In this document: positions 3,675-14,240 of the stretch, in pieces
Layout of the letters: every line of letters starts with the position of its first letter
Position numbering within the stretch: the first letter of the stretch is position 1
Assembly (NCBI GenBank): GCA_913045115.1
Contig: CAJWPJ010000008.1
Coordinates: 1-35,214 of the forward strand
From: an uncultured Gammaproteobacteria bacterium
GTDB taxonomy: Bacteria; Pseudomonadota; Gammaproteobacteria; GCA-002705445; GCA-002716945
Direction of reading: 5' to 3'
Length of the DNA: 35,214 nucleotides
The notes under the pieces: model-generated
Database searches by the model: none
The model's input: only the letters and a program-made list of their open reading frames with translations
What the model was told of the DNA's origin: nothing
Program-made: the position numbers and the translations under genes

Positions 3675-4323
3675 CGACTTTACATTCTCACCTTTATTTG
3701 ATTATTGTGAGTATGAGGTAATAAAGCAGAACAACTTTAGATATTATAAAATTGAGGACAACTTGGTCCCAAGTGTAACTTCAATTCTAAGATTATCTAG
3801 ATATAACCAAAAGGATATATTTTCAGCAAAACAAGCTGATTCTTTTGAAATAGGCAATTTGATGCATAGCTACCTTGATAGATATATTAGAAAAGAGGAG
3901 ATTGAAATCGAAGATACTAATAATTCAAAAATCGCTTTTCAGCTTTGTAAATCAATAATTGATAATATTTTTCCTAATATTGATAAGTTTTTTGCCTCAG
4001 AGGCAACTATACACGAAGATTATAAATATGCTGGTAGACTTGATCTACTTGCAGAAATAGATGGTAAACTCACAGTAATAGACTACAAATCATCATTTCG
4101 AAAAAAAAGCACTTATCAAATTGACGAACACTTTCAACAGCTTGCAGCTTATGCGTCGGCACATGATAAAATGTTTAATACAAAAATTGAAAGAGCTATG
4201 ATATTTATTGCATATAAAGATACTTATGAGCATGAAATAGTCGAGGCAGGATATTCGTCTTTGAAAAATTACAAGGATATGTGGTTAGATAAACTTCAGT
4301 ATTATAATGATGTGTCACAATGA
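3658..4323 (+). CDS. PD-(D/E)XK exonuclease-like protein, related to the MGME1 type
   Basis: A 221-residue putative nuclease. The N-terminal part has PSVTSIL (about 38-44), followed by IGNLMHSYLDRYI (about 65-77) with a conserved His70. The nuclease core is YAGRLDLLAEIDGKLTVIDYK (about 124-144), giving Asp129, Asp142 and Lys144 as the probable D...D-x-K metal site. QQLAAYASAHD (about 160-170) is the downstream Q-x-x-x-Y motif of RecB-like nucleases. This order of motifs resembles mitochondrial genome maintenance exonuclease 1 and its bacterial and phage relatives, which act on single-stranded DNA ends. Function in this organism is inference. It overlaps the MerR gene by 17 bases and prfB by ATGA. 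The start at 3658 has no strong ribosome site, consistent with coupling. Confidence 0.75.
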   Translation: MYLINDDFTFSPLFDYCEYEVIKQNNFRYYKIEDNLVPSVTSILRLSRYNQKDIFSAKQADSFEIGNLMHSYLDRYIRKEEIEIEDTNNSKIAFQLCKSIIDNIFPNIDKFFASEATIHEDYKYAGRLDLLAEIDGKLTVIDYKSSFRKKSTYQIDEHFQQLAAYASAHDKMFNTKIERAMIFIAYKDTYEHEIVEAGYSSLKNYKDMWLDKLQYYNDVSQ

Positions 4324-5439
4324 ATAAACTAATAGACCAGGTTAATGAAATTATAGAGCAGACAAAGCTCAATAAGCTTAAGTTAAATGAGCTACGGGGG
4401 TTAGTTTGACTATGATTCGCTTGATCAAAATATTACAGAAATAACAAACAAGCTCAATGATCCAAATATTTGGGATGATAGAATAGAGATAACAAATTTA
4501 AATAAAAACCTTAAAAAGAAAACTTTACTAAAATCTACTGTTGATGAAATAGCTTCTGACATAGATTTAATAAATTACACTCTCGAAACAATACTTACTG
4601 ACTCATCTGACGATGATGAAAAACTTTTAGCAGAGATGTCAGATTTACATAAATCTACTACTTCTAACCTTGAAAAGTTTTCTTTCACACAACTATTCAA
4701 GGGTGAAAATGATGATGCCAGCGCTTATATTGATATTCAATCAGGCTCTGGAGGGACCGAAGCACAAGATTGGGTAGCTATGATTATGCGTATGTACCTT
4801 AAGTGGATTGAAAAACACTCATTTACATCTGAGATCACTGAAGCCAGTGAAGGAGAAGTAGCAGGATTTAAAAGTGTTACTATTAAAGTAAGCGGTGATT
4901 ATGCTTATGGTTGGCTAAGAACAGAAACAGGAGTGCACAGATTAGTTAGAAAATCTCCATTTGACTCAGGAAATCGGAGACACACATCATTTGCCTCCGT
5001 TTTTATTTATCCTCAGATAGATGATTCATTTGAAATAGAGATTAATCCATCTGACCTAAGAATAGATGTCTTCAGGGCAAGTGGAGCAGGCGGCCAACAT
5101 GTTAATACTACTGAATCTGCTGTCCGCATAACACACCTACCTACAAAAATTGTGGTTCAATGTCAGAATGATAGATCTCAGCATAAAAATAAAGAATCAG
5201 CTATGAAACAGTTACGTGCTAAACTATACGCACATGAGCTCAATAAAAAGAATGAGATTAAAAACCAAGTTGAATCAGAGAAATCTGATATAAGCTGGGG
5301 CAATCAGATTAGATCTTATGTTTTGGATGACTCAAGAATTAAAGATTTGAGAACAAATTTTGAAACTGGGAATACTCAGTCTGTTCTTGATGGTAATCTT
5401 GATGATTTTATTCAAGAGAGTCTTAAGAGGGGACTATAA
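4320..5439 (+). CDS. prfB: Peptide chain release factor 2, expressed through a programmed +1 frameshift
   Basis: RF2 terminates translation at UGA and UAA. The gene starts at ATG 4320 and reads 29 codons to an in-frame TGA at 4407-4409. A +1 shift there (skipping T4407) continues at GAC 4408 and gives a full protein of about 372 residues. Across the join the protein reads LRGLV then DYDSL, matching E. coli LRGYL-DYDAK. Functional motifs are present: the stop-reading tripeptide SPF (about 212-214) and the peptidyl-hydrolysis GGQ (about 257-259). An alanine stands at the position equivalent to E. coli residue 246 (RASGAGGQ), the residue usual outside E. coli K-12. Product level should be autoregulated by RF2 itself. 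It overlaps the nuclease gene upstream and abuts lysS, as in E. coli. A caller ignoring the frameshift would start it wrongly at 4636. Confidence 0.96.
4395..4410 (+). promoter_or_regulatory. RF2 programmed +1 frameshift site with a GTT slippery codon
   Basis: CGGGGG (4395-4400) is an internal Shine-Dalgarno-like stimulator. It is followed by TTA, the shift codon GTT (4404-4406), the stop TGA (4407-4409) and C4410. The layout and spacing are the same as the E. coli site (AGG GGG TAT CTT TGA C). The unusual feature is GTT in place of the almost invariant CTT. A CUU-reading tRNA-Leu can re-pair on UUU after slipping, whereas a tRNA-Val slipping from GUU to UUU has a worse first-position fit. 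The site is still clearly the shift point, because the downstream frame resumes with conserved RF2 sequence immediately. Confidence 0.93.
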
Positions 5440-8548: not shown

Positions 8549-9928
8549 ATGAAAAAAAATAATTATAGGATTGAAACAGACTCTCTAGGAAAAGTTAAAG
8601 TAGCAAAAAACGCACTTTATGGAGCTCAAACTCAAAGAGCTATAGATAATTTTAAAATGAGCGGGATAACTTTTGACCCGGCATTCATACAAGCCCTATC
8701 TAATCTTAAAAATGCATGTGCTAAAGCTAATGCAAACTGCATGGTCTTGCCTAAAAATAAAGCCACTTGTATCTCATCAATTACCAATAAGATATCTTCT
8801 AATACGCTTGAATTCATGGATCATTTCCCAGTGGATGTATTTCAAACTGGCTCAGGCACAAGTACAAATATGAATATGAATGAAGTTATATCAAATATCG
8901 CAAAACAAGATCATAAAAAAAGTATTCATCCAAATGATGATGTAAATATGTCGCAGAGCTCAAACGATGTAATACCTACTACAATCAATATTTCTAGTCT
9001 TACTATGAGTAAAAGCCTCTCAATGTCTATTAATTTTCTTTGTGATTCAATTAATTCTAAGTCCAAATCTCTGGCACATATCATAAAGTCTGGAAGGACT
9101 CACTTAATGGATGCCGTACCGATTTCTTTTGAACAAGAATTAAATGTCTGGGAAGAACAAGTAAGGGCATCTCAATCACAAATAGACTTGTCTTGTGAGG
9201 AAATATCGTATCTCCCTATCGGCGGTACAGCTATTGGTACGGGTATTAACTCACCTAAAAAATTTAGTAAAAATGTTTGCCAGGAATTGAATAAAATATA
9301 TAGCGAAATGAAGTTAAAATTTAAGCCTCTTGAAATAAAAGGCGAAATGATGAGCTCTCAAAATCACATACTTACTTTAAGTTCTGCGCTTACTCGATAT
9401 GCATCTACTTTATCAAAAATTGCAAATGACATCCGTTGGATGAATAGCGGGCCAATCTCAGGACTTTCAGAGATATCCCTAAAAGCTCTCCAACCAGGAA
9501 GTAGTATTATGCCAGGAAAAATTAATCCTGTTATATCAGAATCTATAATGATGGCTGCTGTGCAAATAAATGGTAATCATTCAACTATAGTCCAAGCCTC
9601 TAGTAGTGGCAGTTTTCAATTGAACACAATGCTTCCTTTGATAGCGCACAATATAATTGAATCTCTATATCTTATGATAAATTCCTCTTTTAGCATGATA
9701 GATCTAATAGATAGCTTCACTGTGAATGAGGATTCTGTCAGAGAAAATTTATTCCGCAACCCCATAATAGCAACTAAACTTAACCAAGTTATAGGATATG
9801 ATTTAGCGTCTAAGATTGTTAAAGAAGCATATAAAACTAATAGCTCTATCTTTGATGTTGCTGAGAACATGACAAGTCTAACAAAAGCAGAACTAATAAA
9901 AATATTAGATCCCAAAAAACTGATATAG
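8549..9928 (+). CDS. fumC: Class II fumarate hydratase
   Basis: Iron-independent, oxygen-stable fumarase that interconverts fumarate and L-malate in the TCA cycle. The 459 residues match the family (467 in E. coli). Key stretches: ALYGAQTQRA near 24-33, QTGSGTSTNMNMNEV (about 96-110), SQSSNDVIPT (substrate binding), SGRTHLMDAVPIS with the catalytic-site histidine, and the signature GSSIMPGKINPV. AAGGG-type bases lie only one base before ATG 8549, so the ribosome site is poorly spaced. The start is fixed by homology, since residues 6-12 (YRIETDS) align with the conserved N-terminus. The stop at 9928 is immediately followed by the ATG of the ExbB-like gene, so the membrane module is probably co-transcribed. 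Confidence 0.96.
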   Translation: MKKNNYRIETDSLGKVKVAKNALYGAQTQRAIDNFKMSGITFDPAFIQALSNLKNACAKANANCMVLPKNKATCISSITNKISSNTLEFMDHFPVDVFQTGSGTSTNMNMNEVISNIAKQDHKKSIHPNDDVNMSQSSNDVIPTTINISSLTMSKSLSMSINFLCDSINSKSKSLAHIIKSGRTHLMDAVPISFEQELNVWEEQVRASQSQIDLSCEEISYLPIGGTAIGTGINSPKKFSKNVCQELNKIYSEMKLKFKPLEIKGEMMSSQNHILTLSSALTRYASTLSKIANDIRWMNSGPISGLSEISLKALQPGSSIMPGKINPVISESIMMAAVQINGNHSTIVQASSSGSFQLNTMLPLIAHNIIESLYLMINSSFSMIDLIDSFTVNEDSVRENLFRNPIIATKLNQVIGYDLASKIVKEAYKTNSSIFDVAENMTSLTKAELIKILDPKKLI

Positions 9929-10576
9929 ATGAAGAATAGTAATATAGATAATGTTTTTATCTACTGGCTCTATTTTGTTTCTCTAATTTTAATATCTATT
10001 TATATTCTTGAATCATTTGGATTTATATCCGGGATTTTTAGAGAAGATATCAGTTATATATCATCGCTTATTGTCTCAATTTTTATATTTTATCTTTTTC
10101 GTGGAGGATATTATTTATATGTGCTCAGAAATACTATTGATAGCTTAGATAGAAATGATTTACGTTTAACAAATAATATATTTGTGGATATTTTAGATGA
10201 GTATAAAGTTTCATCATCAAATAATTCTAATAAAAAACCGTTTCAAGAAGAATTAAAATTAAGGTTATATGAAATTGTAGACAATGGATTTTTTGTAGCC
10301 GACATACTCTTAAAACTTGGAATTGTTGGAACTGTTATAGGTTTCATCATAATGCTAAGTTCATTATCGACGATTGATGAAATGAATTTAGCAAAGATGA
10401 ACAACTTATTATTAAGCATGAGTAGTGGCATGAAGGTCGCTTTATACACTACGTTAAGTGGTTTAATTTGTTCTATACTTCTAACGATTCAAAATAATTT
10501 TTTTGAAAATAAAATTAATTTTTTTATCAGCAAAATTATGAGCCTGGGAAATAATGAGAAGAAAGACAAGAATTAG
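9929..10576 (+). CDS. MotA/TolQ/ExbB-family proton-channel-like membrane protein
   Basis: A 215-residue inner-membrane protein. Hydrophobic segments lie at about 9-30, 42-60, 122-146 and 168-188, with a cytoplasmic stretch of about 60 residues between the second and third. The last two segments carry the family pattern: LKLGIVGTVIGFI with glycines and a Thr lining the presumed channel, then SSGMKVALYTTLSGLICSILL. These match the TM2/TM3 signature of TolQ/ExbB/MotA. Such proteins form a pentameric ring around two copies of an ExbD/TolR/MotB-type partner and use proton flow to do work in the periplasm. The partner is likely the next gene, which overlaps by 23 bases. What the complex drives is unknown. 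No TonB, TolA or flagellar gene is nearby. Confidence 0.8.
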   Translation: MKNSNIDNVFIYWLYFVSLILISIYILESFGFISGIFREDISYISSLIVSIFIFYLFRGGYYLYVLRNTIDSLDRNDLRLTNNIFVDILDEYKVSSSNNSNKKPFQEELKLRLYEIVDNGFFVADILLKLGIVGTVIGFIIMLSSLSTIDEMNLAKMNNLLLSMSSGMKVALYTTLSGLICSILLTIQNNFFENKINFFISKIMSLGNNEKKDKN

Positions 10577-11159
10577 AACAGAGCCTTTTACAGATTTACT
10601 TTTTAACACACTTCTAGGTTTTACTTTTTTGTTTTTTATTACGGTACTCTTTATAAATCCTATATCGAAAATAGGAAATGTGAATATGAAGGCAGAATAT
10701 ATTGTAACAGTTGACTGGAAGGACAGTCTTCCAGACGATGTTGATATTTGGGTTCAAGACCCTAATGGAGAAACTGTCTCATATTTAAAAAAAGATGCTG
10801 GATGGCTTCATCTTGATAGAGATGATCAAGGAATAGTCAATGATATCGTCACGATTGATGGCGAAGATATTGTTTATCCGATTAATAGAGAAGTCGTTAC
10901 TTTGAGAGGAATAATTCCAGGTGAGTATATTATAAATTTATATCTCTACGAACATAAAAGTAATATACCTGTGGATGTAAAAGTTATAATAGAAAAAGTG
11001 AATCCAACGCTGAAACTTGTTTACGCAAATAATATTGTACTGGCTAATAAAGATACTGAAGTAACTGTAACAAGATTTTACTTGGACGAAAACGGCGAAT
11101 ATTCATCAGGCACTAACCAAAAGAAGATTCTCACACCCTATAATTTAAAAGGATTTTAA
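10554..11159 (+). CDS. ExbD/MotB-like membrane-anchored protein with an unusual periplasmic domain
   Basis: A 201-residue protein with a basic N-terminus, one membrane segment (about 16-36) and a periplasmic C-terminal part of about 160 residues. EPFTDLLFNTLLGF (about 10-23) resembles the ExbD/TolR stretch P-F-x-D-x-x-L-x-L-L, so Asp14 is the candidate proton-carrying residue. The periplasmic domain is not the ExbD or OmpA-like peptidoglycan domain. It has VDWKDSLPDDVDIWVQDPNG (about 53-72) and GWLHLDRDD (about 83-91), like beta-sandwich domains of the DUF2135 kind in which D-x-D-x-W-V-x-DP-x-G recurs. That similarity is from memory of motifs and should be treated as tentative. It is translated from within the channel gene, so the two subunits are probably made together. 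Confidence 0.7.
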   Translation: MRRKTRIRTEPFTDLLFNTLLGFTFLFFITVLFINPISKIGNVNMKAEYIVTVDWKDSLPDDVDIWVQDPNGETVSYLKKDAGWLHLDRDDQGIVNDIVTIDGEDIVYPINREVVTLRGIIPGEYIINLYLYEHKSNIPVDVKVIIEKVNPTLKLVYANNIVLANKDTEVTVTRFYLDENGEYSSGTNQKKILTPYNLKGF

Positions 11160-11162
11160 CCA

Positions 11163-11591
11163 ATGAGCTTGTATCTATATTTATTCTTATTACTAATTAT
11201 ATATATATTTCTAGTAAATAATTTTATTAAGAACAAAGCATTCAATTTAAAAATAATTATTGCTCTGACTATATCCGTTATTTTTATATTCTTGTTCCAA
11301 AGCATAAAAAATAATGAGGGATATGCAGTAAACCATGATTTACCTAATAGTTTTTATGTATTAAATAGTTATATTGAGGGGGACAATATACTGATTTTAA
11401 TCAGAGAAAAAGATAAAGAGCCAAGACTCTATCGTATTAAAAAGAGCATAGAACTCAACAGATTCCTAAAAAAGTATAATAGTCTCAAAAAAGATGGACA
11501 AGATGTGGTTGTAAAAAAACATAATGCGCCAAATAGAGATTCATTGGGCATGTATATCGAAAGTGTACAAAAAAAGTTACCACTTAAGTAA
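11163..11591 (+). CDS. Small two-helix membrane protein, third gene of the ExbB/ExbD-like module
   Basis: A 142-residue protein that I do not recognise. Two strongly hydrophobic segments (about 3-21 and 31-48) are separated by a short basic loop (IKNKAFNLK). A soluble tail of about 90 residues follows, rich in lysine. Its middle, YIEGDNILILIREKDKEPRLY, looks like beta-strands, and RFLKKYNSLKKDG looks like a helix. It starts three bases after the previous stop, with AGGA about nine bases upstream, and is followed by the acnA promoter region. Position and membrane topology suggest an accessory subunit of the proton-channel complex; this is inference from context. Confidence 0.65.
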   Translation: MSLYLYLFLLLIIYIFLVNNFIKNKAFNLKIIIALTISVIFIFLFQSIKNNEGYAVNHDLPNSFYVLNSYIEGDNILILIREKDKEPRLYRIKKSIELNRFLKKYNSLKKDGQDVVVKKHNAPNRDSLGMYIESVQKKLPLK

Positions 11592-11654: not shown

Positions 11655-14240
11655 ATGTCAGAAAAAACAGAAATTTCTATAAATAATAGTAACTTTCATA
11701 TCTTTAATATTAATAAATATAAGATCGACAATCTACCATATTCCCTCAGAGTACTTATGGAAAATTATCTAAGAAACGAAAAAGATAACCCAAATTTTCA
11801 ATCTATTATAGATAAATTTACTAGTTGGGATGGGAGTGCAGACACTAGTACAGAACTAACATTTTATCCAAGTAGGGTAATCATGCAAGACTTCACTGGA
11901 GTACCTGCTGTGGTAGACCTAGCCTCCATGCGAGATGCAATGAAATCGCTTGATTCAACAAAAGCAGACGCAGTAAACCCGCAGTGTCAAACTGACTTAG
12001 TTATAGATCACTCAGTCATGGTTGATCATTTTGGATCATCGGAATCTAAAGATTTGAATACTAAGCTTGAGTATGAAAGAAATACTGAAAGATATAAGTT
12101 ATTAAAATGGGGTCAACAAGCATTCAAAAATCTGCGTATCGTACCGCCGAATAATGGAATCATCCATCAAATCAATATTGAATACATTGCTAGAGTGATC
12201 TATGAAAAAGATGGAAATTTATATCCTGATACAGTTGTTGGAACTGACTCTCATACAACGATGGTGAATGGTTTGGGTGTTTTAGGATGGGGAGTTGGTG
12301 GTATTGAAGCTGAGGCCGCTATGCTAGGCCAACCGATACCTATGTTACTTCCTGAGGTAATAGGTTTTGAACTTACCGGAGAGCTTGGGCAAACTACAAC
12401 AGCTACAGATTTAGTCCTAACTATTGTACAAATGCTTCGAGAAAAAAATGTAGTAGGTAAGTTTGTTGAGTTTTATGGATCAGGATTGGACAATTTAACA
12501 ATTGCTGATAGATGTACAATATCAAATATGGCGCCTGAGTATGGTGCTACTTGTGGATTTTTCCCTATAGATTCACTTACCATTGACTATCTTAGGATGA
12601 CTGGCAAAGATGAAACTCATCTAAATATAGTTGAGGGCTATAGTAAAGAATGTGGATTTTACAGAGATGATAGTCAAAATATTAAATACACCGATACACT
12701 ATCTCTAGACATGAGCAAAGTTGAAGCTTGTCTGTCAGGACCAAAAAGACCTCAAGATAGGGTGCTCTTATCTGATGTAAAAGATGTTTCAGAAAAAGAA
12801 ATAAAGAAGCTTAAGAAGTCAGATAAATCAAGTGGTAAAATAAATGATGGCGATATATTAATTGCAGCAATAACAAGTTGCACAAATACATCAAATCCAA
12901 GTGTCATAATTGGTGCTGGACTATTAGCTAAAAATGCTATTGAAAAAGGCTTATCTACAAAAGATTGGGTTAAAACATCTCTGGCTCCAGGCTCAAGAGT
13001 TGTTGAAAATTATTTAAGGAAGGCAAATTTGCTAGATTCATTGAATCAGCTTGGTTTTAACATTGTTGGATATGGATGTACAACTTGTATAGGTAACTCT
13101 GGTCCATTAGATGAGAATTATGTGAAAGAAATTAATGATAGAGATCTTATTGTAAGTTCTATTTTATCAGGTAATAGAAATTTTGAAGGAAGGATTCATC
13201 CCGAAATAAAAATGAACTTCTTAGCAAGCCCAATGCTCGTTGTAGCATACTCGCTTGTAGGAAAAATTAATATTGATATCAATCAAACTATACTCGGTCA
13301 GGATAACAACGGCGATGATGTATACCTAAGAGATATATGGCCTTCAAATAGTGAAATTGATGATGTAATGTCAAAAACTATTGACGGTGACATGTTCAAC
13401 AAATCTTATGAGAACTTATTTGATGGTGATGAAAATTGGTCATCTATTCCTACATCAGAATCTGACCATTTTGACTGGGATGAGAATTCTACATATATTC
13501 AACCATCACCTTTTTTTGGCAAAGGGAAAGATAATCAAGAATTTTTACCAGCAATAGAATCTGCGTATCCTCTTGTAATACTTGGAGATAGTGTAACGAC
13601 AGATCATATTTCCCCAGCGGGTTCCTTCAGGGACACTACGCCAGCAGGCAGACATTTGATTGAAAATTCTGTCAAAATAAAAGATTTCAATTCATATGGA
13701 TCGCGGAGAGGTAATTTTAAAATTATGCAAAGAGGCACTTTTGCAAACGTGCGTCTATCCAATAAACTAGTACCTGAAAAAACTGGTGGTTACACTAAAC
13801 ATCTGCCGGACGGAGCCGAAATGTCAATCTATGATGCTGCGCAGGAGTATAAAAAAACTAATACAAATCTCATTATATTTGCTGGTAAAGACTATGGCTG
13901 TGGATCATCGCGTGATTGGGCTGCAAAAGGCACTAAACTATTGGGTGTTAAGGCCGTGGTTGCAGAGAGTTTTGAGAGAATACATAGATCAAATTTAGTA
14001 GGAATGGGAATAATGCCTTTACAGTTCAATAAAGGGGATAGTTTTGAGTCTCTTGATTTATCTATGGACTCGTCTTTCAACATAGAGTCGATTAATAAGA
14101 CTGATAAAAGAGTTCTGATTACAGAAAATACCTCATCTAAAAATTTTGAGGTTAAAGTAAGAATTGATACCGCTAAAGAGTGGGAGTATTTCGTTAATGA
14201 TGGAATACTTAATTATGTTTTGAAGAAATTAGCGAATTAA
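11655..14240 (+). CDS. acnA: Aconitate hydratase A
   Basis: Isomerises citrate to isocitrate through a [4Fe-4S] cluster, for the TCA cycle and glyoxylate shunt. The 861 residues are slightly shorter than E. coli AcnA (891). The three cluster ligands are visible as Cys409 (SCTNTSNP), Cys475 and Cys478 (GYGCTTCIGNSG). The substrate-site loop DSHTTMVNGLGVLGWGVGG and the swivel-domain motifs GDSVTTDHISPAG, YGSRRGN and GSSRDWAAKG, all diagnostic of the AcnA/IRP type, are present. AGAGGG precedes ATG 11655. The gene converges on hflD with only one base between the two stops. The nearby iscU gene would supply its cluster. Confidence 0.97.
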   Translation: MSEKTEISINNSNFHIFNINKYKIDNLPYSLRVLMENYLRNEKDNPNFQSIIDKFTSWDGSADTSTELTFYPSRVIMQDFTGVPAVVDLASMRDAMKSLDSTKADAVNPQCQTDLVIDHSVMVDHFGSSESKDLNTKLEYERNTERYKLLKWGQQAFKNLRIVPPNNGIIHQINIEYIARVIYEKDGNLYPDTVVGTDSHTTMVNGLGVLGWGVGGIEAEAAMLGQPIPMLLPEVIGFELTGELGQTTTATDLVLTIVQMLREKNVVGKFVEFYGSGLDNLTIADRCTISNMAPEYGATCGFFPIDSLTIDYLRMTGKDETHLNIVEGYSKECGFYRDDSQNIKYTDTLSLDMSKVEACLSGPKRPQDRVLLSDVKDVSEKEIKKLKKSDKSSGKINDGDILIAAITSCTNTSNPSVIIGAGLLAKNAIEKGLSTKDWVKTSLAPGSRVVENYLRKANLLDSLNQLGFNIVGYGCTTCIGNSGPLDENYVKEINDRDLIVSSILSGNRNFEGRIHPEIKMNFLASPMLVVAYSLVGKINIDINQTILGQDNNGDDVYLRDIWPSNSEIDDVMSKTIDGDMFNKSYENLFDGDENWSSIPTSESDHFDWDENSTYIQPSPFFGKGKDNQEFLPAIESAYPLVILGDSVTTDHISPAGSFRDTTPAGRHLIENSVKIKDFNSYGSRRGNFKIMQRGTFANVRLSNKLVPEKTGGYTKHLPDGAEMSIYDAAQEYKKTNTNLIIFAGKDYGCGSSRDWAAKGTKLLGVKAVVAESFERIHRSNLVGMGIMPLQFNKGDSFESLDLSMDSSFNIESINKTDKRVLITENTSSKNFEVKVRIDTAKEWEYFVNDGILNYVLKKLAN

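Follow-up and report, generated by a model that had tools for sequence, protein, structure and literature searches.

A conserved gene trio encoding a MotA/TolQ/ExbB-family channel protein, a predicted helix-plus-beta-sandwich protein and a constant third subunit in proteobacteria and rhizobial phages

What do three small genes packed directly behind fumC in an uncultured gammaproteobacterium encode, and do they belong to any of the ion-driven motors already described? The motors of this kind described so far power flagella and gliding, import through the outer membrane, constriction of the envelope and defence against phages. An unnamed member that is both widespread and strongly conserved, and whose periplasmic domain is new, points to an energised process at the envelope that nobody has assigned. 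The genes, here called A, B and C, lie in a 35,214-nt stretch (the window), which is contig C8 of a 1.05-Mb gammaproteobacterial assembly that is 96.65% complete. All features of the run are on the forward strand. fumC (8549-9928) ends on the base preceding A (9929-10576), A overlaps B (10554-11159) by 23 nt, B is followed after 3 nt by C (11163-11591), and acnA (11655-14240) begins 63 nt further on. Promoter- and terminator-like signals inside the operon run did not clearly exceed the shuffled expectation, and one transcript for the whole gene run is plausible.

Gene A encodes a protein of 215 aa that matched PF01618 (MotA_ExbB) with an E value of 9.5e-10 and 38.7 bits, above the curated Pfam cut-off of 22.9. 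About four membrane helices are suggested by its hydropathy profile. ExbB has three helices, and four is the arrangement of MotA. Invariant columns in a 38-sequence alignment include G131, G134, T135, T174 and T175, and the channel threonines are nearly invariant in the wider set as well; we take T135, T174 and T175 to be equivalent to the channel Thr positions of ExbB/TolQ. A is a genuine MotA/TolQ/ExbB-family protein, in line with the channel character proposed for it at the outset.

With the ExbB-ExbD and TolQ-TolR pairs of Ton and Tol-Pal, A shares PF01618 and the conserved channel Thr, whereas it apparently has four helices instead of the three of ExbB/TolQ. It resembles MotA of the MotA-MotB/PomA-PomB systems in four-helix topology and in a weak profile match, but is too short to hold the large torque domain. 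Its nearest named profiles in both PADLOC and NCBIfam are ZorA of Zorya, and ZorA (8vvn, E 0.0013) was also the best match of the A profile in the PDB, MotA coming next and weakly. However, A covers just 60-100 residues of ZorA models that run to 461-699 positions, and it lacks their full length and long cytoplasmic tail.

Gene B encodes 201 aa with a basic N-terminus and, by hydropathy, one membrane helix, which spans residues 11-34 and opens with P11-F-T-D14. Residues 10-21, EPFTDLLFNTLL (10581-10616, forward strand), include Asp14 (codon 10593-10595) as the candidate ion-carrying residue, and P11, F12, D14, L15, F17 and N18 are invariant in alignment A3. The remainder of the protein carries a D-x-D-x-W-V-x-D-P-N-G motif. 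An AlphaFold2 model (pLDDT 83.5) places a beta-sandwich at 47-185 and no helix outside 11-34.

B had no family match in Pfam (VWA included), NCBIfam or PADLOC and nothing significant among PDB sequences by sequence or profile, and Foldseek found no PDB structure for the model at E 0.001 (best E 0.057). The weak match to PF09906 (DUF2135) in 5 of 39 B members is non-significant (best E 0.0068) and does not include the B of the window. In PHROGs all matches were weak and fell on large phage families that are uncharacterised (phrog_1735, E 0.0056; phrog_16549, E 0.01). Against BFVD, five larger phage proteins were matched by Foldseek (E 2e-5 to 3e-4), which we read as a common beta-domain with no function implied. 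The view of B as a single N-terminal helix joined to a novel periplasmic domain is thus upheld by the lack of a library match and of a PDB fold.

Purifying selection on B is stronger than on FumC, and B is constrained like a central enzyme. Between the window and locus L030, dN/dS was 0.019 for B, 0.023 for acnA, 0.030 for fumC, 0.053 for C and 0.077 for A, all rough values as dS exceeds 1.

The original prediction likened the start of the B helix to the proton-carrying Asp segment of ExbD. ExbD does have P-x-x-Asp at the start of its N-terminal helix with the same spacing as B (alignment A6, covering this genome and its relatives), so motif and spacing stand. Homology finds no support, as profile-profile comparison of B with ExbD by hhalign returned probabilities of 0.9% for the full length and 1.8% for the helix alone, below many shuffled controls. 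Because this comparison is non-significant, the likeness is one of architecture and motif, and a common descent of B and ExbD is unsupported by sequence. Nor is B an ordinary ExbD or TolR over its whole length, as it lacks PF02472, whose sole matches in the genome are two exbD genes on contig C10, and its periplasmic domain is modelled as a beta-sandwich and not as the ExbD fold. There is no exbD or tolR neighbour able to act as the axle instead of B.

As in MotB, an Asp lies in a single helix of B, but the OmpA-like peptidoglycan-binding domain of MotB is missing from B by Pfam, PADLOC and PDB fold; no flagellar genes were recognised in the window. B is not ZorB by PADLOC, and neither ZorC/ZorD nor ZorE was recognised on inspection of the window's ORFs. 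The nearest precedent is the TPH-vWA class, in which a TolQ-like gene lacks tolR/exbD neighbours and its partner combines a pore-helix Asp with a different periplasmic domain (PMC12204202). That domain is a Rossmann-type vWA, in contrast to the helix and beta-sandwich modelled for B, and no counterpart of C is described there.

Gene C encodes 142 aa. Hydropathy supports the two-helix membrane protein first proposed, with a basic loop between the helices, and the model (pLDDT 85.7) adds a C-terminal alpha/beta domain. By the positive-inside rule, the basic inter-helix loop suggests that this extra domain is periplasmic. Three residues are invariant, G53, R88 and K142, the last being a conserved terminal Lys. 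Neither Pfam nor PADLOC had a match for C, and those among NCBIfam models were weak and below the cut-off; the C profile found nothing significant among PDB sequences, and the C model found no PDB structure at E 0.001 by Foldseek.

Linkage of the three genes was assessed in a profile scan of species genomes, which found 348 encoding stretches, 80 of them kept. A stood beside B in all 83 loci considered (the 80 and three distant ones), C was absent just at contig ends, and order, offset and strand of A-B-C were constant across 78 loci. C is a constant subunit of the set and no bystander. A chance arrangement can be dismissed given this linkage and a dN/dS of about 0.02 for B, and the trio stays together away from fumC, as in every complete locus all three genes were present.

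A search of 57 relatives recovered B from the majority of genomes in the window's family, as well as from three distant gammaproteobacteria. Evenly drawn samples showed it in 40 of 369 genomes from the Gammaproteobacteria and, for the phylum, in 17 of 399, the latter including an alphaproteobacterial genus with genomes of 6-9 Mb; the trio thus occurs in Gamma- and Alphaproteobacteria. Additional loci likewise have A and C alongside B; the exceptions are L133, where A was unrecognised, and several loci of a distant B subfamily, whose profile is homologous to that of the main group (hhalign E 2.5e-30). Distant B copies with no recognised A are those of L153/L181, L157 and L158.

Distant B homologues of about 30% identity also occur on Azospirillum megaplasmids (for example NZ_CP012915.1, 960333-960950), each of seven records having two such places. 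One locus, L034 (PBJZ01000005.1), is titled Flavobacteriaceae and has the same fumC-A-B-C-acnA run with a B 92% identical to that of the window; the title is probably wrong.

Could the trio serve fumarate and aconitase metabolism? The order fumC-A-B-C is fixed in 21 of 21 loci of the window's family, and acnA follows wherever the contig extends that far (L022 ends before it). Yet neither fumC nor acnA was found beside the trio at any surveyed locus outside this family, and we give next to no credence to a metabolic tie. Of the coupling to fumC originally put forward, the tight packing (an overlap and gaps of 0 to 3 nt) is real, while a functional coupling is rejected outside the one family to which the linkage is confined.

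The reading that we find reasonably probable is that A-B-C form a new branch of the ExbB/MotA-type motors that acts on the envelope, with B as axle and load in one and C as third subunit. The three proteins would make up one inner-membrane machine with A as the channel ring. Two B helices may sit inside this ring with Asp14 facing the threonines of A, and ion entry would then turn or shift B, whose beta-sandwich would transmit the movement into the periplasm. C may dock on the ring and contribute a second periplasmic domain. In favour of this stand the family of A and its channel threonines, the P-x-x-Asp opening of the B helix, the constant order and strand of the trio, its retention in phages, the strong constraint on B, the envelope-type neighbours and the lack of an alternative axle gene nearby; against it weigh the missing profile homology of B to ExbD, the altered ion-path residues of some lineages and the distant B copies with no recognised A. 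An ExbB/MotA-type motor as such is known; an axle-plus-load protein, a constant third subunit and carriage by phages are undescribed in the sources searched. Open-licence papers, a selection in which a description may be missed, gave no account of the trio, and B and C are unnamed in the libraries searched, which fits the uncharacterised module of ExbB/MotA kind that was predicted.

The target of the putative motor would be the envelope, and genes that recur around the trio favour this. Outside the window's family, in Alphaproteobacteria and several gammaproteobacterial families, the gene after C is lipoprotein-like and has a weak DUF3108-like match, an arrangement scattered across several clades of the B tree; the lipoprotein is the likely partner in many relatives. 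Other loci have an L,D-transpeptidase (YkuD) and a DUF302 gene before A, some of them also an FHA or VWA-FHA gene after C, and a gene for a DsbH-type thioredoxin protein recurs near the trio. The lipoprotein, L,D-transpeptidase and FHA/VWA neighbours point to envelope work, although adjacency is not proof of interaction. At L106 (11141-13983), C is succeeded by three lipoprotein-type genes of one family, all in its orientation; an ORF on the other strand separates the first from the second.

The FHA and VWA-FHA genes, which follow C in several lineages, would also suit an ion-gated envelope sensor, in which the periplasmic domain of B senses the state of the envelope, A switches between open and closed, and a signal goes on to, for example, FHA/VWA proteins. 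The ZorA profiles nearest to A agree with this; ZorA complexes, which act in phage defence, are reported to be 5:2 assemblies (PMC11890865). But FHA/VWA genes are missing from most arrangements, including that of the window, and A at 215 aa falls far short of the ZorA models; we therefore regard a sensor as unlikely. For the envelope-acting motor that we prefer, a 5:2 assembly of A and B would be the corresponding arrangement.

The relation of the trio to Ton and Tol-Pal bears on a further alternative. As noted at the outset, no TonB, TolA or other Tol/Pal gene lies beside the trio, and the constant subunit C is an addition relative to both systems; this can be refined in that a Ton locus (tonB, two exbD and exbB, near receptors) is present elsewhere in the genome, on contig C10, separate from the trio. 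Its ExbB and A are the only two PF01618 proteins found in the genome, and genomes of the family hold at most two. TolB and Pal gave no match in the assembly, and TolB was absent from the four genomes of the family in the class sample, while most gammaproteobacteria have it. In streamlined genomes, A-B-C could accordingly stand in for Tol-Pal in a lineage-specific way. However, TolB was found in all 36 other B-positive gammaproteobacterial genomes of the sample and in 7 of 11 streamlined alphaproteobacterial genomes, and even a lineage-specific replacement appears distinctly improbable. A general replacement is rejected on the same co-occurrence, which argues that A-B-C is a separate system and no general Tol substitute.

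Phages carry the trio as well. By tblastn, phage B copies were restricted to Rhizobium and Sinorhizobium phages, namely temperate 16-3 (p040) with its relatives and T4-like Pootjesviridae; the B of the window matched phage RHph_N34 with an E value of 6e-26. IMG/VR contained no relatives when scanned with the window's B and with A1, and seven loci when scanned with p040 of 16-3. With profiles widened by distant members, A, B and C were recognised in five of five phage records, A of the 16-3 type weakly (E about 1e-3), and three phage A proteins narrowly exceed the PF01618 cut-off. Phage A proteins are 138-158 aa long, and the miniature A-B-C loci lie at L184 4244-7132, L185 4537-6026, L186 3586-6511, L187 4515-8734 and L188 3054-6231. 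A trypsin-like protease gene is near the trio in four of these five.

The B tree joins N34-type phages to a Bradyrhizobium-like clade (support 90) and puts those of the 16-3 type with the distant subfamily, placements that are unsure as the tree was made by a quick method and has long branches. Since the phage copies stand in two places of this tree, at least two captures of the trio by phages are likely. The miniature set makes the trio testable in a tractable temperate phage, 16-3.

The opposite direction, in which bacteria domesticated a module that came from phages or acted against them, would be consistent with the rhizobial phage copies, with a prophage-like region at L182 and with the BFVD matches of the B fold to larger phage proteins (E 2e-5). 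Cellular copies, however, lie amid core genes (fumC/acnA, apt and others) at positions conserved within families and adjoin no recognised Zorya partner gene, and copies in phages are scarce, confined to those of rhizobia and split between two places in the B tree. Such an origin is very improbable.

The prophage-like region of L182 (5711-10230) has a distant A-B-C set and genes resembling those for a trypsin-like protease, a holin and a GH19-type endolysin. A member of the distant B subfamily at L157 likewise lies in a stretch with phage-like genes.

Returning to the motor, we offer a wider proposal tentatively, at somewhat less than even likelihood. A-B-C and the recurrent lipoprotein may constitute, in addition to Ton and Tol-Pal, a further proton-motive-force-driven link between inner and outer membrane that belongs to the core of streamlined marine proteobacteria. 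Its axle would itself bear the load domain, and rhizobium phages would have captured the system on two or more occasions as a means of acting on the envelope of their hosts.

The acid-threonine pair on which ion flow would depend is a rule with clade-specific exceptions, and the predicted ion path is not universal. In the wider set, Asp occupies position 14 of B in 137 of 162 rows, three further rows being unaligned there; these are row counts in which some rows repeat one genome, and not independent events. All 22 rows without Asp14 have Val or Ala at this position together with Lys18 in place of Asn18. The six Ala14 rows are those with two C genes (L132, L137, L164, L170, L171 and L172), and the further rows lacking Asp14 are L142-L152, L175-L178 and L183. 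In the gammaproteobacterial family f108 (L139 and L161), T135 of A is replaced by Lys (LGLLGKVIGF) and B keeps D14. These natural swaps at Asp14/Asn18 and at Thr135 provide ready comparisons of motor ion use.

Elsewhere in the window, prfB, encoding release factor 2 (4320-5439, forward strand), reads as two frames joined at RGLV-TGA-C, with the stop TGA at 4407-4409. The site is that of the customary programmed +1 frameshift, except that GTT takes the place of the common CTT ahead of the TGA.
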